DNA of 50,736 nt from assembly GCA_944392145.1 (NCBI GenBank), contig CALXVS010000010.1, positions 1-50,736 of the forward strand, given 5' to 3'. The position numbers were made by a program, and so were the translations under genes. The DNA is from an uncultured Alphaproteobacteria bacterium (lineage in GTDB: Bacteria > Pseudomonadota > Alphaproteobacteria > CAAHEQ01 > UBA3637). Below the pieces are notes generated by a model. The model searched no databases. It saw only the letters and a list, made by a program, of their open reading frames with translations, and had not been told where the DNA came from. Of the stretch, positions 3,758-49,984 are shown in pieces; the first letter of the stretch is position 1, and each line of letters starts with the position of its first letter.

Positions 3758-4192
3758 TTAGGCGATTTCGCGCGCCTGCTCGCGTAAAAACGTCATTGTG
3801 GGGACAAATCGCACTTTATTCTTTAGCACAGTCTTTTGTTCCGGCACCACGGTCGCGCTTGCTGCCGCCGGTGCAGTGGCCGCGACCTCTGCTGCCCGGG
3901 ACGTTTCGGCCGCTTGTGTATCGGCAATTACTTGTGCCGCAGCGGCCACCGCCGGTGTTTTATCCGCCGCCAATTCTTGCGTCAATTCGGGCAAACAGGC
4001 TTGCGCTTTACCCAATGCCGCATTCAATTCGGCATTTTCCTTTTCTTCTTTTTTCTTTAACAAAACCGCTGTCCACAGGGCTAATAACGCCTTGGCACTG
4101 TTATCTTTCTTTTTGAAAACGCCGCTTAATAAAAACACTCCGGCCAAGCAATTGCTGATATTCGCAAAGATATCTAAAACAGATGCATCCAT
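3758..4192 (-). CDS. Hypothetical membrane-anchored alanine-rich protein
   Basis: I do not recognise this 144-aa protein. Residues 1-27 are hydrophobic and could anchor it in the inner membrane. Residues 40-70 are lysine/glutamate-rich and could form a coiled coil. The rest is a long alanine-rich linker (about 70-115) and a basic end. I prefer the minus-strand frame over the longer overlapping plus-strand frame (3798-4277) because its ATG at 4192 has a strong GGAGGA ribosome site and a good promoter at 4227-4255. A mechanical or envelope role is possible but cannot be shown. Confidence 0.6.
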   Translation of the reverse strand: MDASVLDIFANISNCLAGVFLLSGVFKKKDNSAKALLALWTAVLLKKKEEKENAELNAALGKAQACLPELTQELAADKTPAVAAAAQVIADTQAAETSRAAEVAATAPAAASATVVPEQKTVLKNKVRFVPTMTFLREQAREIA

Positions 4193-7947: not shown

Positions 7948-8751
7948 ATGACAAATTTAATCAAAATCACCGAGATTGAACAAGAACCGCGCATCCAAGA
8001 TATTGTTTTGGGGCGTGCTTTGGGATTAGCACGTGCACGAAAAATAAAAGATGTTATTGATGCAAATATGGCAGAATTATTGACTTATGGTCGTGCGCCC
8101 TTGATAAGGGCGGACGTGAAAATCGGCTGTGCAACCCGTAAGACAGAATCCTATTATTTAAACGAACCGCAAGCATTACTTATTTGTATGTTTTCACGGA
8201 CAGATAAAGCGGCGGAAGTAAGGAAAGAGGTCATACAGGCCTACATGGCATTAAAACACCCTCAAAACGACCTTGGCCTTGTCCCGGTCTCCTCCTACAC
8301 CCGACGTCTTCCCTCCGGACCGCGGGAAATCAAGTTATCCGAAAAAGCCCGGTCTGAAATCGGCGGGATTGTCAAGGCGTGCATCGGTTCGGCCTTAAAA
8401 GACATCACCGTGACACAAACGGTTGACCCCATTGGATACAATATCCCCGAATCGTTAAAGCAACCCGACGTCGTGCCGGCCGAGGTGGAAAAGGAGCTGT
8501 GGCGCCTGACCGAACAGTTGCATTACGGACTTCAAAAGCAACAACCGAAAGCACAAAACACATCGGTGCTGAATTTGTTTTACCTATTGCGGGCACTTAA
8601 AACGGTTTTAACCCGGTATCGCACCGTGCAAAACGAAACGTTGTTTGCCGTGGACATGATGAAAGGGGATAAAAACTATGAAAAGGACGAGGCTTTAGAA
8701 CGCATATACATCCTAAACGCCATGACGAACGGCGCGTTACGGGTGTGCTGA
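7948..8751 (+). CDS. Antirepressor-type protein A with shared C-terminal domain
   Basis: A 267-aa protein. Residues 1-105 form an N-terminal module (DIVLGRALGLARARKIKDVI ... YYLNEPQALLICMFS ... EVRKEVIQAYMAL) typical of phage antirepressor/anti-immunity proteins that are neither BRO nor Rha. Residues 106-267 are a domain shared with three other proteins here (19276, 39671, 42518), starting LGLVPVSSYTRR and ending TNGALRVC. It is transcribed against the late operon, next to the spanins. Such proteins usually counter the CI repressor or act on the host; the target is unknown. An RNA leader controls it. Confidence 0.75.
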   Translation: MTNLIKITEIEQEPRIQDIVLGRALGLARARKIKDVIDANMAELLTYGRAPLIRADVKIGCATRKTESYYLNEPQALLICMFSRTDKAAEVRKEVIQAYMALKHPQNDLGLVPVSSYTRRLPSGPREIKLSEKARSEIGGIVKACIGSALKDITVTQTVDPIGYNIPESLKQPDVVPAEVEKELWRLTEQLHYGLQKQQPKAQNTSVLNLFYLLRALKTVLTRYRTVQNETLFAVDMMKGDKNYEKDEALERIYILNAMTNGALRVC

Positions 8752-15704: not shown

Positions 15705-15733
15705 TTGACTTATCTTTTTGTAAGTGATATAAT
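15705..15733 (+). promoter_or_regulatory. Promoter of small RNA A
   Basis: TTGACT (15705-15710), 17 bp, TATAAT (15728-15733), on the strand opposite to the late operon. The 29 bp are identical to 23532-23560. Confidence 0.85.
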
Positions 15734-15739
15734 TGTTTA

Positions 15740-15832
15740 AAAGTTGGTTGAGGAAGGGGCTTTGACCCTAGTCAGTGTCTGTCAACCAGGTGACCGCAAG
15801 TTAGTAGACCCGCCTCTTGCGGCTTTTTATTT
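15740..15832 (+). ncRNA. Small RNA A, convergent with nuclease A
   Basis: This ~90-nt RNA has no reading frame. GTTGGTTG (15753-15760) pairs with CAACCAG (15783-15789), forming a first hairpin. A strong terminator follows: CCGCAAG (15794-15800) with CTTGCGG (15816-15822) and a T run. The T run contains the complement of the nuclease A stop codon (15827-15829). The first ~65 nt are identical to small RNA B, while the terminator stem differs. Confidence 0.75.
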
Positions 15833-16351
15833 TTCGTAATAAGCCGTCATTACAAACTGTATCCTTGATTTAAACAATTTAGGCTCTACAATAACTTTTT
15901 TTCCCTTATGTCTAATTATAAAATCTTTTTTCTCATCTTGGTAAATTTCCCCTTTCTCAATGACCTCTGTCAATGAAGAAAGTAGCTTACCCAAAGGCTG
16001 TTTTGTTTCTTTCCGACGCTTAACAATATGCTGCAGTCCCATATCATCGTTCCCCCAAATCAGGGAAATACCCCCTATGTCTTTGCGCATAAAGGCGTCT
16101 TTAACGTATCCTTGTTTTTCTTTCATTAACAAGTCAACCGCCGCTTGTCCTTTAACACCCGTGTATTCTTTGCCTAAAATATCGGCTGTCTTTGCACTGC
16201 CTTTATCAAAATGAGCTCTATCCGCTCCGCTTTCAGCAAACTTCCCGTCTTTATCCCGTTTATGCTTGCTTTCGTCCCAAGCATTTAAAGCACGCAGACC
16301 GGTATCTATCCGAATCAGGCGTTCTTTTGTGTTGATTTCAATACGTATCAT
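15827..16351 (-). CDS. Putative PBECR-like phage nuclease A
   Basis: A 174-aa protein. Residues ~28-45 (AWDESKHKRDKDGKFAESG) are the linker often found between phage head proteins and attached toxin domains. The core (GKEYTGVKGQAAVDLLMKEK, IGGISLIWGNDDMGLQHIVK) is nearly identical to 23657-24169 and to the portal C terminus; the last ~45 residues differ. The pattern with GLQHIVKRR fits the phage barnase/EndoU/colicin-type (PBECR) nuclease group, with the His as likely catalytic residue. This is by eye. It lies 3 bp after the plug gene. Confidence 0.6.
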   Translation of the reverse strand: MIRIEINTKERLIRIDTGLRALNAWDESKHKRDKDGKFAESGADRAHFDKGSAKTADILGKEYTGVKGQAAVDLLMKEKQGYVKDAFMRKDIGGISLIWGNDDMGLQHIVKRRKETKQPLGKLLSSLTEVIEKGEIYQDEKKDFIIRHKGKKVIVEPKLFKSRIQFVMTAYYEK

Positions 16352-19275: not shown

Positions 19276-20427
19276 TCAGCACACCCGTAACGCGCCGTTT
19301 GTCAGGGCGTTTAAGATGTATATGCGTTCTAAAGCCTCGTCCTTTTCATAGTTTTTATCCCCTTTCATCATGTCAACGGCAAACAACGTTTCGTTTTGCA
19401 CGGTGCGATACCGGGTTAAAACCGTTTTAAGTGCCCGCAATAGGTAAAACAAATTCAGCACCGATGTGTTTTGTGCTTTCGGTTGTTGCTTTTGAAGTCC
19501 GTAATGCAACTGTTCGGTCAGGCGCCACAGCTCCTTTTCCACCTCGGCCGGCACGACGTCGGGTTGCTTTAACGATTCGGGGATATTGTATCCAATGGGG
19601 TCAACCGTTTGTGTCACGGTGATGTCTTTTAAGGCCGAACCGATGCACGCCTTGACAATCCCGCCGATTTCAGACCGGGCTTTTTCGGACAACTTGATTT
19701 CCCGCGGTCCGGAGGGAAGACGTCGGGTGTATGAGGATACCGGAACGAGGCCAAGCTCTTGTTGCGCCGGGGAGACATAGGCGCCGGTCTTGCGGATACT
19801 TGGTAGGACTTCCGAATAGACCCAGTCAGCAAAGGCTTGCGCTTGCGGTTTGTTAGAACGGAATATCAGGCGGTAGAGATTGGGTTCGTTGATGATTGTA
19901 ATTTGCTGCATTACAGAAAAGAACATAATTTCTTGGTTTATGCTAACCATACACCCCTTCGGTGGGTTAGTGGCTCTTGTCACATACACCCACAAGTTTT
20001 CTATATCACAACGATTTTTCCCATATTTTTTAAATTCTTCTTCACGTTGTTTCTTCCACCTTTTTTCCCGTTCTTCTTGCTCTTTCTTTTCCTCCAAGTA
20101 TTTTTTGTGATTTTCTTTGATTTGTTCACTTAGTTCATTGCGACAGGATTCTATTCGTCTATATCCTTCTTTAAGATGAGTTTTATAAATGAACTTTTGG
20201 AAATCATTATAAGAGGATTCAACTTCCTTTAATTTTTTTTCTGTTTTATTCAAGTATGCCATTTTTTCTGATTTCTCTAAAGAAATTTCTTGTTCATCAT
20301 GGCAATCATCATAAAAATACGAATAATTACTCCGACTGCCAACCAATTGCTCAATTGCATCATTCCTTAGATCAGAACACGCACACAAAGTTCCCAAAAT
20401 AATAAAACACGAAACTTGCTTTAACAT
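19276..20427 (-). CDS. Chimeric moron: lipoprotein/coiled coil fused to a truncated BRO module and the shared C-terminal domain
   Basis: A 383-aa frame in three parts. Residues 1-17 are a lipoprotein signal (FIILGTLCAC, lipobox TLCAC). Residues 18-~150 are a charged coiled coil (EEKKEQEEREKRWKKQREEE). From ~175 (ITIINEPNLYRLIFRS) comes the second half of a BRO-N domain without its first ~60 residues, then the shared C-terminal domain. The antirepressor part could not reach DNA if the protein is exported. It is either a recombination relic or a new envelope protein. It has its own promoter and is bracketed by hairpins in the tail operon. Confidence 0.65.
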   Translation of the reverse strand: MLKQVSCFIILGTLCACSDLRNDAIEQLVGSRSNYSYFYDDCHDEQEISLEKSEKMAYLNKTEKKLKEVESSYNDFQKFIYKTHLKEGYRRIESCRNELSEQIKENHKKYLEEKKEQEEREKRWKKQREEEFKKYGKNRCDIENLWVYVTRATNPPKGCMVSINQEIMFFSVMQQITIINEPNLYRLIFRSNKPQAQAFADWVYSEVLPSIRKTGAYVSPAQQELGLVPVSSYTRRLPSGPREIKLSEKARSEIGGIVKACIGSALKDITVTQTVDPIGYNIPESLKQPDVVPAEVEKELWRLTEQLHYGLQKQQPKAQNTSVLNLFYLLRALKTVLTRYRTVQNETLFAVDMMKGDKNYEKDEALERIYILNALTNGALRVC

Positions 20428-23531: not shown

Positions 23532-23560
23532 TTGACTTATCTTTTTGTAAGTGATATAAT
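23532..23560 (+). promoter_or_regulatory. Promoter of small RNA B
   Basis: TTGACT (23532-23537), 17 bp, TATAAT (23555-23560), identical to the promoter of small RNA A. Confidence 0.85.
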
Positions 23561-23566
23561 TGTTTA

Positions 23567-23660
23567 AAAGTTGGTTGAGGAAGGGGCTTTGACCCTAGTC
23601 AGTGTCTGTCAACCAGGTGACCCGTCTGTTAGTAAATTTCCTCAGACGGGCTTTTTTTAT
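23567..23660 (+). ncRNA. Small RNA B, convergent with nuclease B
   Basis: The transcribed part is identical to small RNA A up to GGTGACC, then has its own terminator stem: CCCGTCTG (23621-23628) with CAGACGGG (23643-23650) and a T run. The nuclease B stop codon (23657-23659) lies in that T run. The loop between the stem arms retains TTAGTA, as in A. Confidence 0.75.
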
Positions 23661-24169
23661 GTATGATAAGCAGTAAAAACAAATTGAAATTCTTCTCCGT
23701 TCATCTTTGGTTCTATAATAGCTTTTTTCTGTTTAAAATTGATTTCAAATCTTCCCTTTTTTGCAAAAGTTAACTCCCCTTTCTCAATGACCTCTGTCAA
23801 TGAAGAAAGTAGCTTACCCAAAGGCTGTTTTGTTTCTTTCCGCCGCTTAATAATATGCTGCAATCCCATATCATCATTTCCCCAAATCAGGGAAATACCC
23901 CCTATGTCTTTGCGTATAAATGCGTCTTTAACGTATCCTTGTTTTTCTTTCATTAACAAGTCAACCGCCGCTTGTCCTTTAACCCCTGTGTATTCTTTGC
24001 CTAAAATATCGGCTATCTTTGCACTGCCTTTACCGGAAATTCCCGACTGTTTTGCAAACTTCCCGTCTTTATCTCGTTTATGCTTACTTTCCTCCCAAGC
24101 GTTCAAAGCATATATGCCGGTATCTATCCGAATCAGGCGTTCTTTTGTGTTGATTTCAATGCGTATCAT
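23657..24169 (-). CDS. Putative PBECR-like phage nuclease B
   Basis: A 170-aa paralogue of nuclease A. The N terminus (MIRIEINTKERLIRIDTG), the linker ESKHKRDKDGKFAKQSG and the core to GLQHIIKRRKETKQ are nearly the same; the last ~45 residues (LTFAKKGRFEINFKQKKAII) differ strongly. It overlaps the upstream connector gene by 14 bases, so it is translated with the head-tail operon. A toxin carried in or made with the virion is possible. The ATG at 24169 is chosen because nuclease A starts at the same residue. Confidence 0.6.
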   Translation of the reverse strand: MIRIEINTKERLIRIDTGIYALNAWEESKHKRDKDGKFAKQSGISGKGSAKIADILGKEYTGVKGQAAVDLLMKEKQGYVKDAFIRKDIGGISLIWGNDDMGLQHIIKRRKETKQPLGKLLSSLTEVIEKGELTFAKKGRFEINFKQKKAIIEPKMNGEEFQFVFTAYHT

Positions 24170-27808: not shown

Positions 27809-28351
27809 TTTTTTCTCCTTGTTTAACACACGAACGGATGAACCACATCGGCCCCGCTCTACAACGGCAACATGGTTGCCCTTTAAATCGGTCGCAATGA
27901 AATCATATGCATCATCATCTGAACGCGTTAATTTGTTTTCATAACTGGCCGATAATTCTTCAATTCCCTTATTTTCAATCGTATCAATAATGCCGCCCCC
28001 AGAGAACATAAGAGGAACGCATAAAAATTCGCCCTCTACTTCGGCTTTTTCACCGGTTGTTCCCTCTTGAAAATCCTTGGCATCTTTACCGTCTTTCCCC
28101 AACCATTCATGGCCGTTGACTAGCGGTTTTAGGGCAAAACTGTCTTTTGCTTTTTCCAATTCTTCCGGCGGCAGAAAAACCTTATAGATTTTATCCGGGA
28201 TGATTTTAATCCCGTCAATCTGTTCCTCCCCCAGTTCAGAACCGTAATATTCCAAGATTCCCGATTTTAAAATCGGTGATTTATCAACATACAAGTATCC
28301 GTTCTCATCAAAATGCCGATGAGAAAGGTTATTTTTAACCCTAAAAAACAT
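27155..28351 (-). CDS. Prohead protease (DUF2213-type) fused to scaffold
   Basis: A 398-aa protein. Residues 1-~175 are the DUF2213 protease-like domain (KIYKVFLPPEELEKAKDSFA, PLVNGHEWLGKDGKD, ELSASYENKL, HVAVVERGRCGSSVRVL; His of NGH and Ser are candidate catalytic residues). The rest is an acidic, helical scaffold with DUF-type C terminus. The start has AAGGA and overlaps the MuF stop. An internal start makes the scaffold alone. Confidence 0.8.
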   Translation of the reverse strand: MFFRVKNNLSHRHFDENGYLYVDKSPILKSGILEYYGSELGEEQIDGIKIIPDKIYKVFLPPEELEKAKDSFALKPLVNGHEWLGKDGKDAKDFQEGTTGEKAEVEGEFLCVPLMFSGGGIIDTIENKGIEELSASYENKLTRSDDDAYDFIATDLKGNHVAVVERGRCGSSVRVLNKEKKMKTKNEVKLLIDGKEIDLGEFFAQEAKEDAHKGTDAITENEDKREIIREIMAISGKPDNEFAGGEDEKVREIAKLAEKLAYKPSETSKADNEEPQEEKDKDANVSEPVKSENTCKAENYDAVYQKIFNAVSQKQKETEEARVRAYNAAKDVCGDFNFTGMNERDIYVKALNHLGVPTERENVAELSAMLKACKKTVRLDNAFNYGAGENTQEVEPNF

Positions 28352-29268
28352 TATTTTTCCTTTATAATTTCATACGTTTCTTTTGCTTTGTTCCAAACGG
28401 CGCGGTATCCTTGATAAAGAATCACACCATTTGCCCGACATCGGCAATTCGGCCGCTGTGCCGGAAGCCCCCTGTTCCCATATGTATCAATGACGGGATA
28501 TCGGCTTTCTTCACCGTATTTATAAATTTTTCCGTTCAATTGTAAGTGACCGCCATCGCCTCGTGATGTCCGGCTGTCAACAACCGCCGACCACTCAAAA
28601 TAATCAATACCCGCATCTTGTTGCATCAGTTCATTTAATGCTTCGGTTGCTTTAGATGTTTGATCGCGTGCAATGCGTTTGACGCGATCCTTTGTTATAT
28701 GCTTTTGCGTTAAAAGGGCATTATACACATCTTTCCACCCCTGCCCGCGCGTCATACCGTCAAACACAATGTTTTCAATGTTCGTCAACGTCTGAGTGGT
28801 TGTATTGCGAATTAAGGCCACATTTCGCCGCATAAACAGTCGCATCATCTCATCATACGCTTGGTCATAATGGATTGTGACGGCCTTTAATCCCGCTTTA
28901 TCTAATGCATCCCGTGCCGTTTTTTGGCCGAATCGCCTTATTTTCCTGATGAATTGAAGAACGATCTTTTCACCGTTTTTTGTCACCGTATCAAGTCCGG
29001 TTGTTTTCAGCTGCCGGATGACATATTCCACCGAAAAAACAGACGGTTTCCGGCGCGGATTATCAACATACAGGGCATTTTGAACGGGAATGGTCGTATA
29101 AACCCGTTCAATCTGCTTAAAACAAACCTCTAAAAACCTCATAAGCTCGGCATCCAAAGCCAGTCGGTAAAACACTTCCGCCGCTTTCCCCTTACCGGTT
29201 AAGTCAAGCGTTGTGTATCCGCCCCGTAAGCGCGACCGCCGTGTTCGGTTCGTTGTTTGTATGGTCAT
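28351..29268 (-). CDS. MuF-like phage minor head protein
   Basis: A 305-aa head morphogenesis protein. Its C-terminal part has the MuF signature: RIARDQTSKATEALN, FEWSAVVDSRTSRGDGGHLQ, and the Cys motif RPNCRCRANGV. Such proteins are packaged with the portal and may enter the host with DNA. It follows portal and nuclease C with small RNA C between them. Confidence 0.9.
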   Translation of the reverse strand: MTIQTTNRTRRSRLRGGYTTLDLTGKGKAAEVFYRLALDAELMRFLEVCFKQIERVYTTIPVQNALYVDNPRRKPSVFSVEYVIRQLKTTGLDTVTKNGEKIVLQFIRKIRRFGQKTARDALDKAGLKAVTIHYDQAYDEMMRLFMRRNVALIRNTTTQTLTNIENIVFDGMTRGQGWKDVYNALLTQKHITKDRVKRIARDQTSKATEALNELMQQDAGIDYFEWSAVVDSRTSRGDGGHLQLNGKIYKYGEESRYPVIDTYGNRGLPAQRPNCRCRANGVILYQGYRAVWNKAKETYEIIKEK

Positions 29269-29290: not shown

Positions 29291-29319
29291 TTGATTTATC
29301 TTTCCGTAAGTGATATAAT
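29291..29319 (+). promoter_or_regulatory. Promoter of small RNA C
   Basis: TTGATT (29291-29296), 17 bp, TATAAT (29314-29319). The spacer (TATCTTTCCGTAAGTGA) differs from A and B by only two bases. Confidence 0.8.
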
Positions 29320-29325
29320 GTAAAG

Positions 29326-29413
29326 TAACCTGAAAGTGGTTGTAGAATTCGGTCTGTCAACCTTAAAGTTAGACATAGTGAACAAGTCCTCTAACGCTTT
29401 CAGGTTTATTATT
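29326..29413 (+). ncRNA. Small RNA C, convergent with the portal-nuclease gene
   Basis: Diverged in sequence but alike in layout: GGTTG pairs with CAACC (29338-29342 with 29358-29362), and the segment CTGTCAACC is kept. Here the terminal stem closes the whole RNA: AACCTGAAAG (29327-29336) pairs with CTTTCAGGTT (29397-29406), then TATTATT. The nuclease stop codon (29409-29411) sits in this tail. Confidence 0.7.
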
Positions 29414-31346
29414 CCACATAATAAGCGGTTAAAACAAAATTTATTTTTTGATTATACAATCTTGGTTCAATAACCGCTTTTTTAGATTTATATTCAATCA
29501 TAAATCTTCCTACACTACTTTCTTTAAGTTCCCCTTTTTCCACAATATCCGTCAGACTGCTTAAAAGTTTTCCAAGATTTTGATCCGTTTCTTTCCGCCG
29601 CTTAATAATATGCTGCAGGCCCATATCATCGTTCCCCCAAATCAGGGAAATACCCCCTATGTCTTTGCGCATAAAGGCGTCTTTAACGTATCCTTGTTTT
29701 TCTTTCATTAACAAGTCAACCGCCGCTTGTCCTTTAACACCCGTGTATTCTTTGCCTAAAATATCGGCTGTCTTTACACTGCCTTTATCGGAATGCGAGT
29801 CACCCGCCCCGCTTTCGGAAAACTTCCCGTCTTTATCACGCGGATGCTGTGACTCTTGCCATGCATTTTGGGCTTTCAATTTGGACGTCACCTCATCCGT
29901 GATATCGTCATAACCCAACAACCCGTCTACATCAGCGTCAATATCTATGTCGCCGATATTCAGATCTTTATCTTTCTTTAACCAGTTAAAGACGTCCTCT
30001 GTCTTGGCACCCATTTCAATCAGGGCTTTTGCCACTTCAACTTGACCTTTAAAAACCTCGGTGGTTTCTTTCTTGTTCAGTTCTTCCAGTGGTTTAAAGA
30101 TGTAATCTTTAAACTTAACAAATTTTCCGGCATCCATCCCGGCGACAACACCATACATGACCAGTAAATTGTCTTTGATAGATGTTTGAATGCGCCGCAC
30201 TTCGTCATACCAGCTTTTGCGATCCCCCTCACCGGTTGCATCCATACCTTGGGCCGATTTACCGAACAATTCCGTCATCGGAATAAAGGTTTTGGCCGCA
30301 ACAATGGCGTAGAACAACTCTACATTCTCACGCAATCCGGTTAAAGAAGTGGTTAATTGCATCACATCTTCTTCCAATGCTAACGGCGTCACCATAAAGT
30401 TATCCTGGACGGTTGACATCAGTTCCAATTGCTTCCGAAAGTTTTCGGCATTTACCGCAAAATTATTCCGATCCGTTTTCATGTAAATATAACGAAACCG
30501 GTTGATTAAATTGGCCGCCCCTTGGCTGACCAGGTTTGAATTGGCAACATCCGCCTTAATCAATTGAGTTAACGGCATGCCGAAATACATGCACAACGGC
30601 TTCATCATTGTTTCGGGGGTGTTTTGTTCAAAATGCAAAAAATGGCTGTGATGACACACACCAAGCCCGACAACATACCAACTTTTGGGTTTCATATAGT
30701 CATGTTCGGCCGGATTGATCGTATTAACCTCAACCGCTTGAACATTCACCGGATCAATATGCCGGAAGCCTTTAAACCGACGCATATCCATTTTTGATAA
30801 ATCCAAAGGCTCGGCCAGATTGTCTAATCCAAAGTCCAAGTAAATTAAACAACCGCCACTGACAAAAGAGCTGCGAACAGCGTTTATCAAATGTTCCGTT
30901 AAATGAAAAACATTTGCTTTTTTATCCAATGCACTCCTGTTAAAATCGCTCTCGTCTGACAGTATCTCCCCGCCTTTTGAAAACGGTGTTTTTGAAAGCA
31001 ATTCAAAAACTTTATTCATCAGCGGATCTTGCGCTAATGTATAACATTCCCAATAATTGACATTTTGATAATTATAATAGGCCAACTGGGCGGTTCCATA
31101 CCCACTGTTGACGGATTGCAAAGGGCTGACCCATTGGTTTTCAAGGCGCACTTTATGGGCATTATACATCTTAATGCCATATGCGGCCCCTAAATCTTTG
31201 GCCCCACCTGTTAGGCGCAATTGTGCCAAGGTAATCGGCTCTTTTACTGACAGGTCTTTTTTATCCCGCTTAAAAAAATCCGGATTAACCAACCATCTAA
31301 AAGGGCTCTTTTCCTGCCTTTTTTTAAAAAAATTTGAAAAATTCAT
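29409..31346 (-). CDS. Portal protein (DUF1073-type) with C-terminal PBECR-like nuclease domain
   Basis: A 645-aa fusion. Residues 1-~485 are a portal of the DUF1073 group (NVNYWECYTLAQDPLMNKVF, MPLTQLIKADVANSNLVSQG, FMVTPLALEEDVMQLTTSLT, IPMTELFGKSAQGMDATGEG). Then comes the linker NAWQESQHPRDKDGKFSESG and a domain nearly identical to nucleases A and B through GLQHIIKRRKE, again with a different last ~45 residues. Twelve nuclease copies could thus be carried per virion. The ATG at 31346 overlaps the TerL stop (TGATG). Confidence 0.85.
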   Translation of the reverse strand: MNFSNFFKKRQEKSPFRWLVNPDFFKRDKKDLSVKEPITLAQLRLTGGAKDLGAAYGIKMYNAHKVRLENQWVSPLQSVNSGYGTAQLAYYNYQNVNYWECYTLAQDPLMNKVFELLSKTPFSKGGEILSDESDFNRSALDKKANVFHLTEHLINAVRSSFVSGGCLIYLDFGLDNLAEPLDLSKMDMRRFKGFRHIDPVNVQAVEVNTINPAEHDYMKPKSWYVVGLGVCHHSHFLHFEQNTPETMMKPLCMYFGMPLTQLIKADVANSNLVSQGAANLINRFRYIYMKTDRNNFAVNAENFRKQLELMSTVQDNFMVTPLALEEDVMQLTTSLTGLRENVELFYAIVAAKTFIPMTELFGKSAQGMDATGEGDRKSWYDEVRRIQTSIKDNLLVMYGVVAGMDAGKFVKFKDYIFKPLEELNKKETTEVFKGQVEVAKALIEMGAKTEDVFNWLKKDKDLNIGDIDIDADVDGLLGYDDITDEVTSKLKAQNAWQESQHPRDKDGKFSESGAGDSHSDKGSVKTADILGKEYTGVKGQAAVDLLMKEKQGYVKDAFMRKDIGGISLIWGNDDMGLQHIIKRRKETDQNLGKLLSSLTDIVEKGELKESSVGRFMIEYKSKKAVIEPRLYNQKINFVLTAYYVE

Positions 31347-32776
31347 CACCGCAAAAATATCCTTCTTGCTCTGTCCCAATCGGGGCTTAAATTCCGTCGG
31401 GCCACTTTAAGCCCGTAAATTAAACAATCTACCAAATCATCGTGTTCATCCTGCTTACCACCGGTGAAAGCCTCTGTTTGTTTTATAAACTCAGGTATCC
31501 ACGACGCACTTTCAGGTATGTATACATATCCGCTTTCCAAATCGGCCGATATTTCCAGAAATCTTGTATACTTGTCCGCAACCTGCTCTTTGGATAGGAT
31601 TTTGTTGTAAAAGGTCGGCTGTAATTCTTTGATCGGAAGCCCCTCTTCCCGTAACTGTTGGATCAGGGAAATCCCGGATCCTTTATTTTCAATATAAACG
31701 GATCCAATCGTATTACACACACCGTATTTTGAAACGCAGTCGTGGTAAAATGCCGTTAAGTCATTCCTTAAAGCCGGAAAGTTGACTTTTTTACAATAGG
31801 CCTCCAGCAAATACCGCTCTTTTCCCTTTATCCCAAACAGCACAAAAGCCGAATTATCGGCCGATTTCTTTTCCGAAAACGCCGTATCGGCAACAATGAA
31901 CAAAATATCAAACTTATCCGGGGCAGATAAATAACGCCGGAAATGCTCTGTTTTTATCAGGTTGCCGCCTTGAATAATCGGGTTTTGCTGATAAAGCGCC
32001 TGAAAATTCGTATTCCCCAATGCCTTTTCCTGCTCACGCAAAAAGTGAATGTCACGAAATTCAGGGAACAACGCGTTGCCGTTACTATCTATGGCCGGAT
32101 GACGACTGGAAATAACCTTATCCCGATAAAATGAATCCGCCTTTAGCATGCCGATTAAATCATCTGTATGCCAGCGTGAATGCAGGACCAAAACCATTGT
32201 GTCGTTCTGCCGCCGCGACATAATATCCCCCCGAAACCTGTTTTCAACCTTTGCCCGAATGGTCGGGGAAAGCGCATCCTCCGCGTTGCGGTAGGGGTCA
32301 TCAATGATGGATATGTTGGACGGATACCCGGTGTTTCCCTCCCCCATCAAACGATAGTCAATCTGCCCGCCCCCTTTAAACCAAACAGATTCAGAGGTAA
32401 ACCGTTTTATAACATTGCCAAACACCGCTTGATAACGGTCACTTTTCAATATTCCCAAAACCTCGGATTGTGTTTTTTCTCTTAAATCGTCTGAAGACGT
32501 ATAAAAGTTAAATTTTAAGCCTCCATGCAATCCTATCAGCCAGGAAGTAAATATCCGCAGCTTTGTTGACTTACCATGCTGCACCGGTTCTTCACTTGTC
32601 GCTATGGGGCGTTCCCCTTTTAAAAACCTGAAATAAAGCTCATACTGGAAAAAATCACAAAGCTCTTCTTCCCATTTGCCTGTTTTAAATCCATCGGCGC
32701 CGCGCAGGTCTTCGTTAATGTAAAGATAGAAACTGTAAAAATCTGTTTGCAGATCCTTACGTTCGCTTTCTTTCAT
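31346..32776 (-). CDS. terL: Terminase large subunit
   Basis: A 476-aa DNA-packaging motor. The ATPase part has a Walker A-like PVQHGKST near residue 66 and Walker B ISIIDDPY. The RNase H-like nuclease part has FIVADTAFSEKK, VYIENKGSG and the terminal DEHDDLVDCL acidic pair. It cuts concatemers and pumps DNA through the portal. I start at 32776 (GGAG upstream), overlapping TerS by 20 bases; the longer frame lies inside terS. Confidence 0.9.
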   Translation of the reverse strand: MKESERKDLQTDFYSFYLYINEDLRGADGFKTGKWEEELCDFFQYELYFRFLKGERPIATSEEPVQHGKSTKLRIFTSWLIGLHGGLKFNFYTSSDDLREKTQSEVLGILKSDRYQAVFGNVIKRFTSESVWFKGGGQIDYRLMGEGNTGYPSNISIIDDPYRNAEDALSPTIRAKVENRFRGDIMSRRQNDTMVLVLHSRWHTDDLIGMLKADSFYRDKVISSRHPAIDSNGNALFPEFRDIHFLREQEKALGNTNFQALYQQNPIIQGGNLIKTEHFRRYLSAPDKFDILFIVADTAFSEKKSADNSAFVLFGIKGKERYLLEAYCKKVNFPALRNDLTAFYHDCVSKYGVCNTIGSVYIENKGSGISLIQQLREEGLPIKELQPTFYNKILSKEQVADKYTRFLEISADLESGYVYIPESASWIPEFIKQTEAFTGGKQDEHDDLVDCLIYGLKVARRNLSPDWDRARRIFLR

Positions 32777-39378: not shown

Positions 39379-39445
39379 AAGAGGCAATGGAAGATAAAAA
39401 ATGACTTTATCTATCGCATTTACAGAATTTTTTCACAAAAACTTG

Positions 39446-39475
39446 TTGACAATAAGCACCAAATGTGATTATAAT
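39446..39475 (+). promoter_or_regulatory. Promoter of antirepressor leader 2
   Basis: TTGACA (39446-39451), 18 bp, TATAAT (39470-39475). Confidence 0.8.
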
Positions 39476-39481
39476 GGGGGT

Positions 39482-39670
39482 AAGGCTAAACACCTTATTA
39501 CAAGCGGACTGTCCGCCCCGAAAGATTTGCGGTTATTTTTGTATCCGATGAATGTCGGGGGTGCAGAGAATAAAAGAGGATTCGTCCGAATAATCTCGCT
39601 CGTCTTGTATCGAGTGTTTAGCCCCCGGCGCCTGACCGGTTCAGGCCTTCTAAACAAAGGATACAAGAAA
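39482..39670 (+). ncRNA. Structured 5' leader RNA 2 (c4-like)
   Basis: Hairpin 1 (TAAGG 39481-39485 with CCTTA 39493-39497) exposes CTAAACA. GTGTTTAGCC (39614-39623) is the exact complement of GGCTAAACAC (39484-39493) and can also pair with CTAAACA (39650-39656) beside the ribosome site. TCTTGTATC (39603-39611) and TTGTATCC (39539-39546) each match the ribosome-site sequence GGATACAAGA (39659-39668). The roles match those in leaders 1 and 3. Confidence 0.65.
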
Positions 39671-40480
39671 ATGCAAGAATTAGTCAGCATTATCAATAAT
39701 CAAATAAAAACAACATCAAATATCATTGCGTCAACATTTGGCAAAGCGCATAAGGATGTTTTGCGCCGTATTGAATCGTTGGAAATCCCTGATGATTGGC
39801 ATCAGCGCAATTTTACGCCCATGCTTAAAACCGTTGATATTGGCGGCGGAGCAACTCGCCACGACAAAGCTTATGAAATCACCCGTGACGGATTTACGTT
39901 GCTTGCCATGGGCTTCACCGGCAAAAAGGCAATGGAATTTAAAATCAAATACATTGATGCCTTTAATAAAATGGAAGCGGCTTTAAAGGGACAAAACGAC
40001 CTTGGCCTTGTTCCCGTGTCCTCTTACACGCGCCGACTCCCGTCCGGCCCACGGGAAATTAAGTTGTCCGACAAAGCCCGCTCCGAAATCGGCGGGATTG
40101 TCAAGGCATGCATCGGTTCGGCCTTAAAAGACATCACCGTAACACAAACGGTTGACCCCATCGGATACAACATCCCCGAATCGTTAAAGCAACCCGATGT
40201 CGTGCCGGCCGAGGTGGAAAAGGAGCTGTGGCGCTTGACCGAACAGTTGCATTACGGACTTCAAAAGCAACAACCGAAAGCGCAAAACACATCGGTGTTG
40301 AATTTGTTTTACCTGCTCCGGGCACTTAAAACGGTTTTAACCCGGTATCGCACCGTGCAAAACGAAACCTTGTTTGCTGTTGACATGATGAAAGGGGATA
40401 AAAACTATGAGAAGGACGAGGCTTTAGAACGTATATACATCTTAAACGCCCTGACAAACGGCGCGTTACGGGTGTGCTGA
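39671..40480 (+). CDS. Rha-family regulator B with shared C-terminal domain
   Basis: A 269-aa protein. Residues 1-~108 are a Rha domain (TTSNIIASTFGKAHKDVLRR, AYEITRDGFTLLAMGFTGKK, AMEFKIKYIDAFNKME), found in phage regulators that interfere with lysogeny. From ~110 it carries the shared C-terminal domain, almost identical at DNA level to that of the BRO protein at 42518. It is preceded by a long RNA leader, with ribosome site AAAGGA. The hairpin CCGGACTGAACATCCGG follows the stop. Confidence 0.85.
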   Translation: MQELVSIINNQIKTTSNIIASTFGKAHKDVLRRIESLEIPDDWHQRNFTPMLKTVDIGGGATRHDKAYEITRDGFTLLAMGFTGKKAMEFKIKYIDAFNKMEAALKGQNDLGLVPVSSYTRRLPSGPREIKLSDKARSEIGGIVKACIGSALKDITVTQTVDPIGYNIPESLKQPDVVPAEVEKELWRLTEQLHYGLQKQQPKAQNTSVLNLFYLLRALKTVLTRYRTVQNETLFAVDMMKGDKNYEKDEALERIYILNALTNGALRVC

Positions 40481-41710: not shown

Positions 41711-42342
41711 TTATTCACACAATGCCGCAGCGCAGCCCGGAATGGTATGCCGTTCGGTTTGGGAAAATCACCGGCTCAACCTTTTATCAATTCATGGGAA
41801 CGGGCAAAACGGTTGAAGACCGCATTTTTGAAAAAGCGGCCGAACATTTAACGCATCAAGCCGCGGTTGACAGTTTTGAATCAATAGACACGGAACGGGG
41901 CAAAACCCTGGAAGATGAGGCCGCCTTTTTATATTCGGTTATGACAGGGCGTGACGTTAAGCAGGTCGGCTTTATTGAGTATAATGCTTATGCGGGATGT
42001 TCTCCAGACGGCCTTGTCGCCGATGACGGCATGATTGAAACCAAATGCCCCCGGCAAGCCGGCCATTTAAAAACCGTTATCAACGGCTTTATCAAACCGG
42101 AATATCGTTGGCAAATGCAATACAACTTGTTCATCGCAGACCGGAAATGGTGCGACTTTGTGAGTTACTGCAAGCCGTTCGGCAAGCCTCACATCATTCG
42201 GGTGGACCGCGATCCGGCATGCTCGGCCCGTATTGCCGAAAAACTGGAAGAATTAAGCGGCCGGATTCAAGAAATTATCAACATGTATAACGAAAGGAGA
42301 AAAAAACTTGTTGACAACATCAAATCATGTATGGTATATTGA
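41707..42342 (+). CDS. YqaJ/lambda-Exo-type alkaline exonuclease
   Basis: A 211-aa 5'-3' exonuclease. QRSPEWYAVRFGKITGS is the entry motif, GCSPDGLVADDGMIETKCP carries the catalytic Asp and Glu-x-Lys, and WQMQYNLFIADRKWCDFVSY is the conserved end of the core. With Rad52 it forms a two-gene recombination system. Its last ~11 codons contain the promoter for leader 3. Confidence 0.95.
   Translation: MIIHTMPQRSPEWYAVRFGKITGSTFYQFMGTGKTVEDRIFEKAAEHLTHQAAVDSFESIDTERGKTLEDEAAFLYSVMTGRDVKQVGFIEYNAYAGCSPDGLVADDGMIETKCPRQAGHLKTVINGFIKPEYRWQMQYNLFIADRKWCDFVSYCKPFGKPHIIRVDRDPACSARIAEKLEELSGRIQEIINMYNERRKKLVDNIKSCMVY
42311..42340 (+). promoter_or_regulatory. Promoter of antirepressor leader 3
   Basis: TTGACA (42311-42316), 18 bp, TATATT (42335-42340), embedded in the 3' end of the exonuclease gene. 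Confidence 0.8.
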
Positions 42343-42346
42343 AGTC

Positions 42347-42517
42347 CTAAACATCAACGGCGGTATTCGCCCCTGTCAGTCTGGCGACTTTTTTATGCCC
42401 AGTTTATGGGGGATGAGAACCGAAAATATATTGAATATCGGTCAGCGTCCGTTGACGTTTAGTGAGTCCCCCACCTCTCATTGTAAAAGGTGGCTTCTAA
42501 AAATCAACGGAGTTACC
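42347..42517 (+). ncRNA. Structured 5' leader RNA 3 (c4-like)
   Basis: The clearest of the three. CTAAACATCAACGG (42347-42360) near the RNA start and CTAAAAATCAACGG (42497-42510) at the ribosome site differ by one base. CCGTTGACGTTTAG (42449-42462) pairs with the first in 13 of 14 positions and with the second in 12 of 14. GGGGG (42408-42412) and CCCCC (42468-42472) can also pair. The leader thus holds a mimic of its own translation start region. Confidence 0.7.
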
Positions 42518-43339
42518 ATGCATAAAGCATTAACTATATTTAATTATCAAAACAATCAAATCCGCACCAAGTTAATTAACAACGAACCTTATTTTTGTGG
42601 TTTGGATGTTTGCAAAATCTTGGGCATTAAAAACAACCGAGATACTATTACCAGATTACACGATGGCGTCGTTATTGCCGACACCACCGATTCTTTAGGC
42701 AGGCAACAAAGCGTTTCGTATATTAACGAGCCAAATCTTTATAAAGTAGCCTTTCAATCGCGTAAACCAACGGCTGAACCATTTGTCAATTGGGTATGCA
42801 AAGAAGTCCTACCAAGTATCCGCAAGACGGGAGCCTATGTCACACCGGCGCAACAGGAGCTGGGCCTTGTTCCGGTGTCTTCTTACACCCGCCGTCTCCC
42901 CTCCGGCCCGAGAGAAATAAAACTCTCCGACAAAGCCCGGTCGGAAATCGGCGGGATTGTCAAGGCGTGCATCGGTTCGGCCTTAAAAGACATCACCGTA
43001 ACACAAACGGTTGACCCCATCGGATACAACATCCCCGAATCGTTAAAGCAACCCGATGTCGTGCCGGCCGAGGTGGAAAAGGAGCTGTGGCGCTTGACCG
43101 AACAGTTGCATTACGGACTTCAAAAGCAACAACCGAAAGCGCAAAACACATCGGTGTTGAATTTGTTTTACCTGCTCCGGGCACTTAAAACGGTTTTAAC
43201 CCGGTATCGCACCGTGCAAAACGAAACCTTGTTTGCTGTTGACATGATGAAAGGGGATAAAAACTATGAGAAGGACGAGGCTTTAGAACGTATATACATC
43301 TTAAACGCCCTGACAAACGGCGCGTTACGGGTGTGCTGA
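42518..43339 (+). CDS. BRO-family antirepressor C with shared C-terminal domain
   Basis: A 273-aa protein. Residues 1-~110 are a full BRO-N domain (IRTKLINNEPYFCGLDVCKI, LGIKNNRDTITRL, SYINEPNLYKVAFQSRKPTA, FVNWVCKEVLPSIRKTGAY). From ~115 it has the shared C-terminal domain. The second half of its BRO domain resembles the truncated copy at 19276-20427. Likely a DNA-binding antirepressor; the RNA leader controls translation. ACGGAG is the ribosome site. Confidence 0.85.
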   Translation: MHKALTIFNYQNNQIRTKLINNEPYFCGLDVCKILGIKNNRDTITRLHDGVVIADTTDSLGRQQSVSYINEPNLYKVAFQSRKPTAEPFVNWVCKEVLPSIRKTGAYVTPAQQELGLVPVSSYTRRLPSGPREIKLSDKARSEIGGIVKACIGSALKDITVTQTVDPIGYNIPESLKQPDVVPAEVEKELWRLTEQLHYGLQKQQPKAQNTSVLNLFYLLRALKTVLTRYRTVQNETLFAVDMMKGDKNYEKDEALERIYILNALTNGALRVC

Positions 43340-44815: not shown

Positions 44816-44843
44816 ACCTTCACACGGTAGGGGCCGCAGGTTC
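44816..44843 (+). other. attR core
   Basis: 28 bp identical to attL 6309-6336, ending at GGTTC of the tRNA T arm. The remaining tRNA 3' end is not adjacent; it follows after 113 bp. Confidence 0.9.
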
Positions 44844-44956
44844 GAACAAGCCGCAAGGCCGGCGGGAGACGGCCGGTTTTAATGCATTAAAATGCGGCGC
44901 GTTAATGTCCCGCAACGCGGGACAGCCCTTTAGGGTGAGCATTATATAATGCGAAT

Positions 44957-44976
44957 AATCCCTGCCACACCCACCA
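44957..44976 (+). pseudogene. tRNA-Val 3' fragment left at attR
   Basis: The T-arm 3' side, acceptor strand and CCA are identical to those of the intact tRNA, but are separated from the att core by a 113-bp insert within the T loop. Confidence 0.85.
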
Positions 44977-44986
44977 ATAAAAAAAG

Positions 44987-45010
44987 GCCGGTTTATCCGG
45001 CTTTTTTTAT
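44987..45010 (+). terminator. Original tRNA-Val terminator
   Basis: GCCGG (44987-44991) pairs with CCGGC (44997-45001), then a T run. It is repeated in the second unit near 45198-45221. Confidence 0.8.
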
Positions 45011-45249
45011 TGGTCTTGGATGTGCCGGATTGAACCTGCGGACAAAGCAGGTTCGAACAAGCCGCAAGGCCGGCGGGAGACGGCCGGTTTTAATGCATTA
45101 AAATGCGGCGCGTTAATGTCCCGCAACGCGGGACAGCCCTTTAGGGTGAGCATTATATAATGCGAATAATCCCTGCCACACCCACCAATAAAAAAAGGCC
45201 GGTTTATCCGGCTTTTTTTATTGGTCTTGGATGTGCCGGATTGAACCTG

Positions 45250-45732
45250 GCGGAAATGTTATCCCCGCCCGCAACACCCCTCCGGCCGTCATGCTTGCGA
45301 ATGCGAGGATCCAGCAGCACTGATACCGCTTTTCTTACCCCTTAACGCCCCACCAAAATAAGGACTCTTTGCCCTGGATACCCGATCGGAGTCGGGCATG
45401 ACGACGGTGGGGTGTCATGGACGGTGAAAGAACCCACCGCCCGCAACACCCCTCCGGCGGTCATCCTTGCGAAAGCGAGGATCCAGCAACACTGATACCG
45501 CTTTTTGGAAACGCGAGACATCCCCGCCCGTGAAAAAACCCACCACCTGCGACACCCCTTATGTCGTCATGCTTGCGAAAGCGGGAATCCAGGAAACATG
45601 AATTCCGCTTTTCTTACCCCTCAACACCCCGCCAAAATAAGGAATCATTGCCCTGGATACCCGCATCCGCGGGTATGACGTGAGGGGGGAAAGGATGCCC
45701 GATCGGAGTCGGGCATGACAAGGGGGAAAATG
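45250..45732. repeat. REP-like palindromic repeat mosaic
   Basis: Left hairpins near 45288-45314, 45459-45485 and 45565-45592; right hairpins of the GCCCGATCGGAGTCGGG-like type near 45378-45403 and 45693-45719, and of the type TACCCGCATCCGCGGGTA near 45658-45678. No gene. Confidence 0.85.
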
Positions 45733-47235: not shown

Positions 47236-49737
47236 TTAATTGATCCGGCACAATCCATGAAGACTTGAAGCTTTACTAAATCTCGATATCCTGCCCAAAT
47301 ACCATTCAACGGTATAAGAAGAACTTGAAAGATGCAGATCACTCAACCAATAATAATTCATTGTTCCAAAGGCGGTTTTAAAGGCCGTCAGATTGGCTGA
47401 TTTGGTCTTATTAGCATCTTTATCTCCACGGGCGGCATTACAATACCCCGTTGTGCTTGCCCCGACAAAGTCATATCCGCATTTAAAATCGGATACCGTT
47501 GCCATACGTCCGCCCAACGATTGACAATAATTTTCCGCAGTCCAGCGATTCATCTGTTTTGTTGATCTGACATACGTGCCAACCCCAACAACTCTTTTTT
47601 TAACACCGGCATCCGTTTTACAGGTTCCATAAACCGGCGCTTCGTTACTGGAACCGTTGTTTTGCGCTGAATCTAACTCACAATATTGTCCGGGAGAACA
47701 CTGGGCATTGCTGATACATTGCGGCTTTTCACATTTGCCTTTCCCAACATGATATACAGTGCCGATAGGGCATCCCGGTGCGCATTGATTGGTATCCGGC
47801 ACCACACGCCGCCCGCAGGCTCGGCACATTTCATATTCATTGGAATAACGAAGCGGATAACTTTTTTCGGTATCACACGGAACACTGCGTGTATTATAAG
47901 ACCTGAAACACGAGCCTGTTTCACAAATACCACGGCAATGCCCATTAACAATTTCCCGATTGGGGCAATCCAAACACAACTCTTTTTCAATATCTAAAGA
48001 TACGGTTTTATCCTCTATTTCATCGCATGAGAAACAAGATCCATATGAGGCAAACTGACTCCCTTTCACACACGAGGAGGCATAACTGCAATAACTGCGG
48101 GTATCAACATGCCGTCCCGGGCAAGCCTCACAACGGCTTTTCTCTTCATCATCGTTGACAGGATACCCCTTTGTATCCGTGCAGCTGTAACACTTGCCGT
48201 TATAAACAAAGTTGGTTCCTTCCTGATAGCATTTCTTCATACAATACCCGTCCACAATTTCACGATCAGGACACGATAAACAGATTTCCTTTTCATCATC
48301 CGATGACACCCAATAACTTTCTTCTGTTGTGCAAGAATAGCATTTTCCGTTGGAAACAAAGTTGCTTCCTTTCTTATAACATTTTTTCATGCAATATCCG
48401 TCCACAATTTCACGATCAGGACACGATAAACAGGTTTCTTTTTCATCTTCCGATGTCACCCGATAACTTTTTTCTGTTGTGCAAGAATAGCATGTTCCGT
48501 CATAAACAAAGTTGGTTCCTTTCTTATAACATTTTTTCATACAATATCCGCCCACAATTTCACGGGCAGGACACGATAAACAGGTTTCTTTTTCATCATC
48601 CGATGACACCTGATAACTTGTTCCTGTTGTGCAAGAATAGCATTTCCCGTTGGAAACAAAGTTGGTGCCTTTCTTATAACATTTTTTCATGCAATATCTG
48701 TCCACAACTTCACGGTTGGAACAAGAAGTGCACGTTGCTTTTTCTTTATCAGAGTTCACCCCATAACTGATCGGCGTATTGCACGGATAACAAACGCCAT
48801 TAGAAACAAAATTACTTCCCGTTTCATAACAATCCTGCATGCAATAACTGCCATAGGCAGTATACCCTGCACATGTTTCACAGGTAGCTCTTTCTGCATC
48901 AGAGGACAAACCACCATATGATTTTCCATCCGTTGGACAATCATAACATTGCCCATAGCGCACAAAATTTATGCCGGCAACATAGCAATCTTTCATGCAA
49001 TAATTGCCGTAAACTTGTCGGCCAGTGCACGCTAAACAAGAGTCAACCTGTTCCTTTTGACTCGGATCAAGCCAAAATCCCCCCTCTGCTGAACAAGGAA
49101 TGCACCGACCCCCGGCAAAAAATTCGTTAGAATCACAATCTGCCGCCTTACTAGCCGTTTCATAAACACCTGTTGTATAATAATAGTCTGTTGTATAATA
49201 GTCTGTTGCATAATACTCTGAAAACGGATTTTCTTCGTTTTCAAGCAACAAATCAGCGTTGTAAATTAAAATCATGGCCGGGGCAACATCTTCTTCGCCA
49301 CACAGGTCATAGTTATCAGATAAAGGATCATACGCCTTATTGCCAACATACATTTCACGCGCAACGGTATAATTTTTTAATAACCCGCGACATGTCGCAT
49401 TGGCAACGTTTTCAAGTTCAACTTCAAAATAACGGGCATCCCATGATGAAAAGGCCGCCACATCGTATCCCAACATTGTTTTATCCCCAAACTCACCGGA
49501 ACTTAATTGAACCCCCGGTTCTATGGTATCAGATGTAACTTGCACCGCATAAACAATCGCGCGTTTGTTTAATTCATCCATTGTTTCATTTGTTTGATAT
49601 CTTTCAATCGCCGCCCGATACCCGAGGATTCCCGTTATTGATAAAATACCAATAATCGCCAATACCCCTAACATTTCAATCATAGAACGTCCCCATTCGG
49701 ACGATAAATTTATGCGTGATATCAAATCCAGCTTCAT
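47236..49737 (-). CDS. Pilin-like surface protein with eight cysteine-rich repeats and a C-type-lectin-like end
   Basis: An 833-aa protein. Residues 15-45 are a type IV prepilin N terminus (GRSMIEMLGVLAIIGILSIT; Glu at +5 after Gly). A pilin-like domain follows to ~210. Then come about eight ~50-aa repeats (YCMKKCYKKGTNFV, GKCYSCTT, DDEKETCLSC) with regular Cys pairs. The last ~120 residues (NRWTAENYCQSLGGRMATVS, YYWLSDLH, EWYLG, LCR) resemble a C-type lectin fold. Likely an exported adhesin or minor pilin. The ATG at 49737 has AGGAGG. Confidence 0.8.
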   Translation of the reverse strand: MKLDLISRINLSSEWGRSMIEMLGVLAIIGILSITGILGYRAAIERYQTNETMDELNKRAIVYAVQVTSDTIEPGVQLSSGEFGDKTMLGYDVAAFSSWDARYFEVELENVANATCRGLLKNYTVAREMYVGNKAYDPLSDNYDLCGEEDVAPAMILIYNADLLLENEENPFSEYYATDYYTTDYYYTTGVYETASKAADCDSNEFFAGGRCIPCSAEGGFWLDPSQKEQVDSCLACTGRQVYGNYCMKDCYVAGINFVRYGQCYDCPTDGKSYGGLSSDAERATCETCAGYTAYGSYCMQDCYETGSNFVSNGVCYPCNTPISYGVNSDKEKATCTSCSNREVVDRYCMKKCYKKGTNFVSNGKCYSCTTGTSYQVSSDDEKETCLSCPAREIVGGYCMKKCYKKGTNFVYDGTCYSCTTEKSYRVTSEDEKETCLSCPDREIVDGYCMKKCYKKGSNFVSNGKCYSCTTEESYWVSSDDEKEICLSCPDREIVDGYCMKKCYQEGTNFVYNGKCYSCTDTKGYPVNDDEEKSRCEACPGRHVDTRSYCSYASSCVKGSQFASYGSCFSCDEIEDKTVSLDIEKELCLDCPNREIVNGHCRGICETGSCFRSYNTRSVPCDTEKSYPLRYSNEYEMCRACGRRVVPDTNQCAPGCPIGTVYHVGKGKCEKPQCISNAQCSPGQYCELDSAQNNGSSNEAPVYGTCKTDAGVKKRVVGVGTYVRSTKQMNRWTAENYCQSLGGRMATVSDFKCGYDFVGASTTGYCNAARGDKDANKTKSANLTAFKTAFGTMNYYWLSDLHLSSSSYTVEWYLGRISRFSKASSLHGLCRIN

Positions 49738-49984
49738 ATGACTTTCCTCCTTTATCCTAAAAAAACAATGTGTTGACAATGTAACATAAAGGTTCCTTTT
49801 TGAAACGCCGAATAACCGGCCGGTATAAAAATAGGATATTTTTAAAATAATATTTTGATTTTTATATAATTTATTTGTTTTATATTTTTTATAGACAAAA
49901 GTAAAAAAACAGTTGCAATTAAAGGAACCTTTTTGTAACACGCATAACACGTTGTTTTTATGGGGGAATGGGAAAATATTGTCA
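49738..49984. other. A/T-rich upstream region of the pilin-like gene
   Basis: No gene is seen. Two copies of an AAAGGNNCC-type motif, AAAGGTTCCTTTTTG (49787-49801) and AAAGGAACCTTTTTG (49921-49935), lie about 130 bp apart and are each near-palindromic, so they could bind a regulator. Confidence 0.4.

Follow-up and report, generated by a model that had tools for sequence, protein, structure and literature searches.

The stretch analyzed here, referred to as the window, comprises 50,736 nucleotides of contig CALXVS010000010.1 (GenBank assembly GCA_944392145.1) from an uncultured Alphaproteobacteria bacterium. It carries a prophage in which three minus-strand genes ending in a PBECR1 domain (a predicted BECR-type RNase domain) are each met at the 3' end by a predicted non-coding RNA with its own plus-strand promoter. 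The features of the three units, and of a nearby head gene, are as follows:

15705..15733, plus strand: copy 1 promoter, TTGACT-17-TATAAT, -35 and -10 boxes at 15705 and 15728, identical to copy 2
15740..15836, plus strand: copy 1 predicted RNA of about 95 nt, start inferred from the promoter, with P2 hairpin (predicted stem 15745-15751/15782-15788), terminator hairpin (predicted stem 15794-15800/15816-15822) and T-run
15827..16351, minus strand: copy 1 solo PBECR1 protein, 174 aa (PF18809, E=3e-11)
23532..23560, plus strand: copy 2 promoter, TTGACT-17-TATAAT, -35 and -10 boxes at 23532 and 23555
23567..23659, plus strand: copy 2 predicted RNA, P2 23572-23578/23609-23615, terminator 23621-23628/23643-23650
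23657..24169 (alternative start 24184), minus strand: copy 2 solo PBECR1 protein, about 170 aa (PF18809, E=1e-10)
29291..29319, plus strand: copy 3 promoter, TTGATT-17-TATAAT, -35 and -10 boxes at 29291 and 29314
29326..29414, plus strand: copy 3 predicted RNA, folded so that P1 (ACCTGAAAG/CTTTCAGGT) encloses P2 (GGTTG/CAACC) and P3 (GTTAGA/TCTAAC)
29409..31379, minus strand: copy 3 portal protein, 656 aa (PF06381, E=1.5e-51), with C-terminal PBECR1 (PF18809, E=1.8e-9)
about 29412-29762, minus strand: the PBECR1 domain forming the C-terminus of the copy 3 portal protein
28351..29268, minus strand: short MuF head protein without nuclease (L222; PF04233), outside the unit and used as an internal negative control

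A preliminary description of the window had named three plus-strand promoters with 17-bp spacing and a TATAAT box, and these were located exactly at the positions given above. The nuclease stop codons (TTA on the plus strand, at 15827-15829, 23657-23659 and 29409-29411) lie within the T-rich terminator tails, as had also been claimed, and in all three units the overlap between RNA and nuclease gene, located at the stop codon, is limited to about 10 nt. The assignment to a PBECR-like domain was confirmed by Pfam search, which gave 44.1, 42.2 and 38.5 bits for the three domains against a cut-off of 27.6; in the whole genome these were the only PBECR1 matches. The nuclease domain had been called nearly identical in the three copies, which holds for the N-terminal half, also as DNA, but not for the last ~40 residues, which differ in all three. 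Similarly, the cassette is present three times as regards its layout, but copy 3 shares only the promoter with copies 1 and 2: its RNA body is different and its gene is the C-terminus of a portal protein rather than a solo gene. Copies 1 and 2, which are recent duplications inside one prophage, match exactly for about 90 nt counted from the -35 box, covering the promoter and the 5' part of the RNA, and then diverge in the terminator stem (CCGCAAG/CTTGCGG in copy 1 vs CCCGTCTG/CAGACGGG in copy 2). The block pattern in the window is that of a constant domain N-terminal half and a constant promoter, with a variable domain C-terminal half and a variable RNA 3' part. Each unit has a single RNA with no tandem repeats, and no same-strand small open reading frame (ORF) of at least 60 aa was listed after the nuclease stops, where the convergent RNA is found instead.

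Across 26 PBECR1 sequences a helix residue, H48 (active-site His), and a C-terminal residue, T109 (Thr/Ser), were nearly invariant; catalytic His and Thr/Ser residues had been predicted for PBECR domains (PMC5512222). Structure prediction of PBECR1 gave a confident model, with a predicted local distance difference test (pLDDT) value of 88.5, and the best PDB matches, to a contact-dependent inhibition (CDI) protein and to RelE/YoeB-type toxins, were weak, none reaching E<=0.001.

A PBECR1 profile search of 42 other genomes of the same family or order returned no match, nor did a search of viral contigs for the exact promoter and RNA patterns of the window. Since these patterns are unmatched there, the window RNA sequence is rare, and the generality of the arrangement becomes visible only by way of the nuclease. 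A degenerate motif, F..[RK].[DE].[LI]G.I..[LVI][VIL]WG, matched 89 stretches in viral contigs, and a set of 25 non-redundant genes with PBECR1 at the gene end was assembled, the window and locus L022 included. PBECR1 matches from Helicobacter, Bordetella, Burkholderia and similar genomes were dropped as test cases because they were mostly internal to long polyvalent proteins and not gene-terminal. By inspection, an opposite-strand promoter followed by a structured RNA ending at or near the stop codon was present at 21 of the 25 genes. With a scoring matrix, a promoter score of at least 10 was reached at 14/25 PBECR1 ends against 21/551 other gene ends on the same contigs (Fisher p=1.6e-12), a contrast that is somewhat inflated as control gene ends often run straight into coding sequence. 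The RNAs fall into several sequence groups. One locus, L047, has two adjacent group A units beside the nuclease and a separate third unit nearby, and is the sole locus with two adjacent units. On the L022 contig, a second, orphan group A RNA was seen at about 3853-3955 (minus strand), downstream of the portal-PBECR1/group B unit.

The same arrangement was found beside a second nuclease family. PBECR2 (PF18810) was searched for in 299 genomes of the window's phylum and occurred in 28 of them; 28 loci were analyzed. Against 3.5% of control ends, 12/28 loci reached a promoter score of at least 10 (p=3e-8). The best -10 box lay 80-126 nt from the stop codon at every one of the 28 loci, although 45-160 was allowed. 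Cultured phages with the RNA unit beside PBECR2 were RcapMu, RR1-B and Thermus phage Riverbug; the unit was also present in the partial record of EBPR siphovirus 4 and absent from a faecal phage record (L199). The core of the Riverbug RNA, CTGGGCCTGG..CCCGATAG, is the same as in class W of the genomes, while the flanking stem bases differ in a compensating manner. When 249 genomes were scanned with an RNA pattern, nine matches were obtained, seven beside a PBECR2 gene, one beside a tail and one alone, and the reversed-pattern control gave none. Matches in viral contigs to the class W pattern CTGGGYCTGG..CCCGATAG had a PBECR neighbour in 0/6 cases, look like chance and were set aside. The search of other phages proposed in the preliminary description recovered the layout but not the exact patterns of the window. 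That description had also regarded nucleases consistently without an RNA as evidence against its proposal; this is contradicted, since most gene-terminal PBECR1 and PBECR2 domains have a convergent structured RNA.

Folded from their predicted starts, the RNAs had median z-scores of -2.2 (PBECR1) and -1.8 (PBECR2) versus -0.3 for controls (p=1e-5 and 6e-5); z-scores of a fixed 110-nt fold gave a weak contrast (p=0.02). In a hand-made structural alignment of 13 group A RNAs, P1, P2 and P3 were paired in 64/66, 52/52 and 65/65 instances, with several pair types per column and many compensatory pairs, and P1 pairing was specific to the cognate strands (59/65 pairs vs 24.8 expected when swapped). 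A contact between loop 2 and loop 3 was paired in 52/52 instances (CGCC/GGCG, CGCA/TGCG, CGCT/AGCG, CCGC/GCGG), a count that overstates the contact because the loop segments in these 13 RNAs were picked by eye. Stems of the PBECR2 class X RNAs also support a structured RNA. The window copy 3 RNA has the P1-P2-P3 layout seen in L022, L128 and L082; in the RNAs of copies 1 and 2 P1 is absent and P3 serves as the terminator. None of the window units, and none of 35 related loci, matched a covariance model of Rfam 15.

Head genes lacking the nuclease were then informative as to specificity. MuF genes with short C-terminal extensions, including L222 of the window, had no promoter-plus-structure after the stop codon. 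In phage Mu, whose PBECR domain has been described as inactive (PMC5512222), the next gene overlaps the stop by 4 bp and the convergent RNA unit is absent. Long MuF genes without a clear PBECR match (L204 and L226, the latter with a sub-threshold MuF_C match) did have a convergent structured RNA. A MuF protein at 1894-3412 of L139, with a C-terminal domain without a clear Pfam PBECR match, likewise has one. As L139, L204 and L226 carry convergent RNAs, further nuclease families probably belong to the system.

In contigs matching Campylobacter phage PP935708, one N-terminal part is joined to any of six C-terminal halves. Every half has an RNA of its own, and the promoters in front of most of these RNAs closely resemble one another. 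Further downstream these contigs contain one or two displaced modules; their RNAs were mostly 89-99% identical to active ones and their promoters largely kept, with the toxins cut to 7-40 residues. Orphan RNAs were also seen elsewhere: in class W, one RNA has a 29-aa PBECR2 tail (L195) and another is alone (L192), two class X RNAs, likewise lone, were detected with a covariance model in one PBECR2-positive genome, and group A RNAs stand alone between late genes at L131 and L140, beside an HK97-gp10-like gene. A gene of this kind also adjoins window copy 2, the likeness of these neighbours being judged by eye from the sequence. The MuF-type scheme, in which a constant part of a head protein carries a variable C-terminal toxin, is that of the Campylobacter-type phages; window copy 3 is portal-fused and not MuF-fused. 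The proposal that RNA and nuclease form one unit is supported by their recurrence at most gene-terminal PBECR1 and PBECR2 genes, by the absence of the RNA at nuclease-less heads, by the joint exchange and by displaced modules in which the RNA stays and the nuclease is lost.

The layout, its recurrence, the RNA structure, the co-exchange and the orphan RNAs are all read directly from the sequences, and on the same basis the nuclease-RNA pairing recurs in many unrelated phages in the manner of a toxin kept with its antidote. We consider it probable that the RNA is a cognate antidote, with its own promoter and made in the lysogen, against a virion-borne RNase; transcription, toxicity, delivery and inhibition by binding are the parts of this reading that we infer. 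The toxin would be a BECR-type RNase domain that ends a phage head protein (portal or MuF) or stands as a solo late gene, and it is probably carried in the virion and injected. The putative antidote would be an RNA of ~70-130 nt, expressed from a sigma70-type promoter of its own on the strand opposite the toxin and ending at the toxin stop codon. Typically it would have two hairpins enclosed by a closing stem, and in the best-resolved classes the two hairpin loops appear to make contact. This would explain the convergent layout: late genes are silent in a lysogen, and an opposite-strand RNA driven by a separate promoter can be produced there in the absence of the toxin. The RNA may shield the lysogen when the same phage or a relative injects its toxin, as well as the producer cell during assembly. 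As the antisense overlap is minimal, the RNA most likely acts by binding the RNase directly, in the way of type III toxin-antitoxin systems. The specificity half (the domain C-terminus) and the RNA would be swapped as one module between conserved flanks, namely the domain N-terminal half and the RNA promoter, and displaced modules would persist much as orphan immunity genes do, in the form of RNAs that have lost their toxin. Among polymorphic toxins, being exchanged along with the specificity half and being retained once the toxin is gone are hallmarks of immunity elements. With slightly less assurance, we also think it likely that these RNAs represent a widespread class of RNA immunity, in which convergent structured RNAs would specifically neutralize virion-delivered BECR RNase toxins, be exchanged with the specificity half and be kept as orphans after toxin loss.

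Several observations weigh against the antidote reading. The convergent unit was absent at three PBECR1 genes (L023, L032, L040) and at a sub-threshold match (L025), and absent from long polyvalent proteins with an internal PBECR1. At the Campylobacter-type loci the -10 box and layout are conserved and the promoter scores are low because the -35 box is weak. The RNA sequences are too diverse for a single model, and the signal for the loop contact was weak in a less curated swap test (group A, p=0.053; PBECR2 class X, p=0.025). The inflated promoter contrast and the choice of loop segments by eye, noted above, belong here as well, and the orphan RNAs could be recombination debris and not selected immunity.

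It is unlikely that the RNA controls the nuclease gene instead of the protein, whether through convergent transcription, as a two-way terminator common to both genes, or by type I-like base-pairing to the 3'-terminal part of the nuclease mRNA. The convergent layout, the common terminator region and an RNA end that overlaps the gene by a few nucleotides would suit such control, but that overlap is only about 10 nt, the compensatory changes maintain internal RNA structure and not complementarity to the gene, and orphan RNAs retain their promoters without a toxin. A packaging signal or a two-way terminator alone was rejected, given that the RNA sequences vary, that the RNAs carry promoters of their own and that some are found where there is no nuclease. 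We regard it as quite improbable that the nuclease binds or processes a phage RNA for some other purpose, the RNA being for instance a guide, a decoy for RNA-based host defence or an RNA packaged in the virion. CRISPR RNAs have been put forward as targets of PBECR domains (PMC5512222), and a nuclease predicted to act on RNA, a strongly structured RNA and the existence of orphan copies would agree with such a role; however, exchange of the RNA together with the specificity half and its outlasting of the lost toxin fit neutralization better, and no known RNA was matched in Rfam. It is highly improbable that an independent small RNA, or a mobile promoter element, travels beside the nuclease cassette with no functional link to it. 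The recent duplication of copies 1 and 2 in a single prophage would suit this reading, but an identical layout with unrelated RNA sequences, in two nuclease families and distant phages, speaks against it, as does the absence of the RNA at nuclease-less head genes, and the recurrence statistics already make it unlikely.

Other repeated elements were noted in the window. Four ORFs, at 7948-8751 (plus), 19276-20427 (minus), 39401-40480 (plus) and 42308-43339 (plus), have a near-identical C-terminal region of ~175 aa (QELGLVPVSSYTRRLP...NGALRVC) and N-terminal parts that differ and resemble phage antirepressor domains, and so form a second multiplied cassette of the prophage. An Rfam match resembling sRNA-Xcc1 at 39554-39637 (plus), scoring 48.8 bits against a gathering score of 53, lies at the start of one of them. 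A 211-bp tandem duplication (99% identical) is located at 44836-45254, just downstream of an integrase-like gene, and a 904-aa gene at 47236-49950 (minus) contains ~150-bp internal repeats coding for cysteine-rich units.

PBECR domains, MuF polymorphic toxins and type III systems are already known. The pairing of a PBECR nuclease with a convergent RNA was found nowhere described in the open literature (subscription journals and bioRxiv being outside its coverage), in line with the preliminary description, which knew of no system with this layout. Fusions of PBECR domains to portal and MuF proteins, as well as solo versions, were reported for polyvalent proteins (Iyer et al. 2017, PMC5512222); that paper treats the same nuclease families and fusions, and it does not refer to a partner RNA (the word 'noncoding' is found 0 times in it). 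The immunity described for polymorphic toxins is protein-based, and an RNA protecting the lysogen from an injected RNase would, if true, be a new kind of immunity. It would also explain how phage capsid proteins can bear RNase domains without harming the host, and would provide a biochemical handle on PBECR domains and a set of structured RNAs absent from Rfam.

The closest resemblance is to type III toxin-antitoxin systems (ToxIN, CptIN, TenpIN), in which, as proposed here, a protein endoribonuclease is paired with a structured RNA that neutralizes it; the tandem pair of L047 adds to the likeness. In type III systems the RNA lies upstream on the same strand as tandem repeats, with one promoter and a terminator before the toxin (PMC5086642), whereas the RNA described here is convergent, has its own promoter and is usually a single unit; the putative toxin belongs to another family and forms the C-terminal part of a phage head protein. 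Type I systems differ in that their RNA is antisense to the toxin mRNA, while here no more than about 10 nt overlap, at the stop codon. In the MuF polymorphic toxins of temperate phages, the C-terminal toxin is exchangeable; it has been suggested that it is injected and benefits lysogens, and that a small downstream ORF encodes the immunity protein (Jamet et al. 2017, PMC5576092). A phage head protein with an exchangeable C-terminal toxin is common to both, but the immunity candidate here is an opposite-strand RNA and the carrier in the window is a portal or solo gene. A further parallel is with the orphan toxin-immunity modules of CDI/Rhs systems (Poole et al. 2011, cited in PMC5576092). Such modules reportedly contain displaced toxin tails in tandem with an intact immunity element, which is a protein. 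The displaced toxin tails found here similarly accompany an intact putative immunity element, in this case an RNA.
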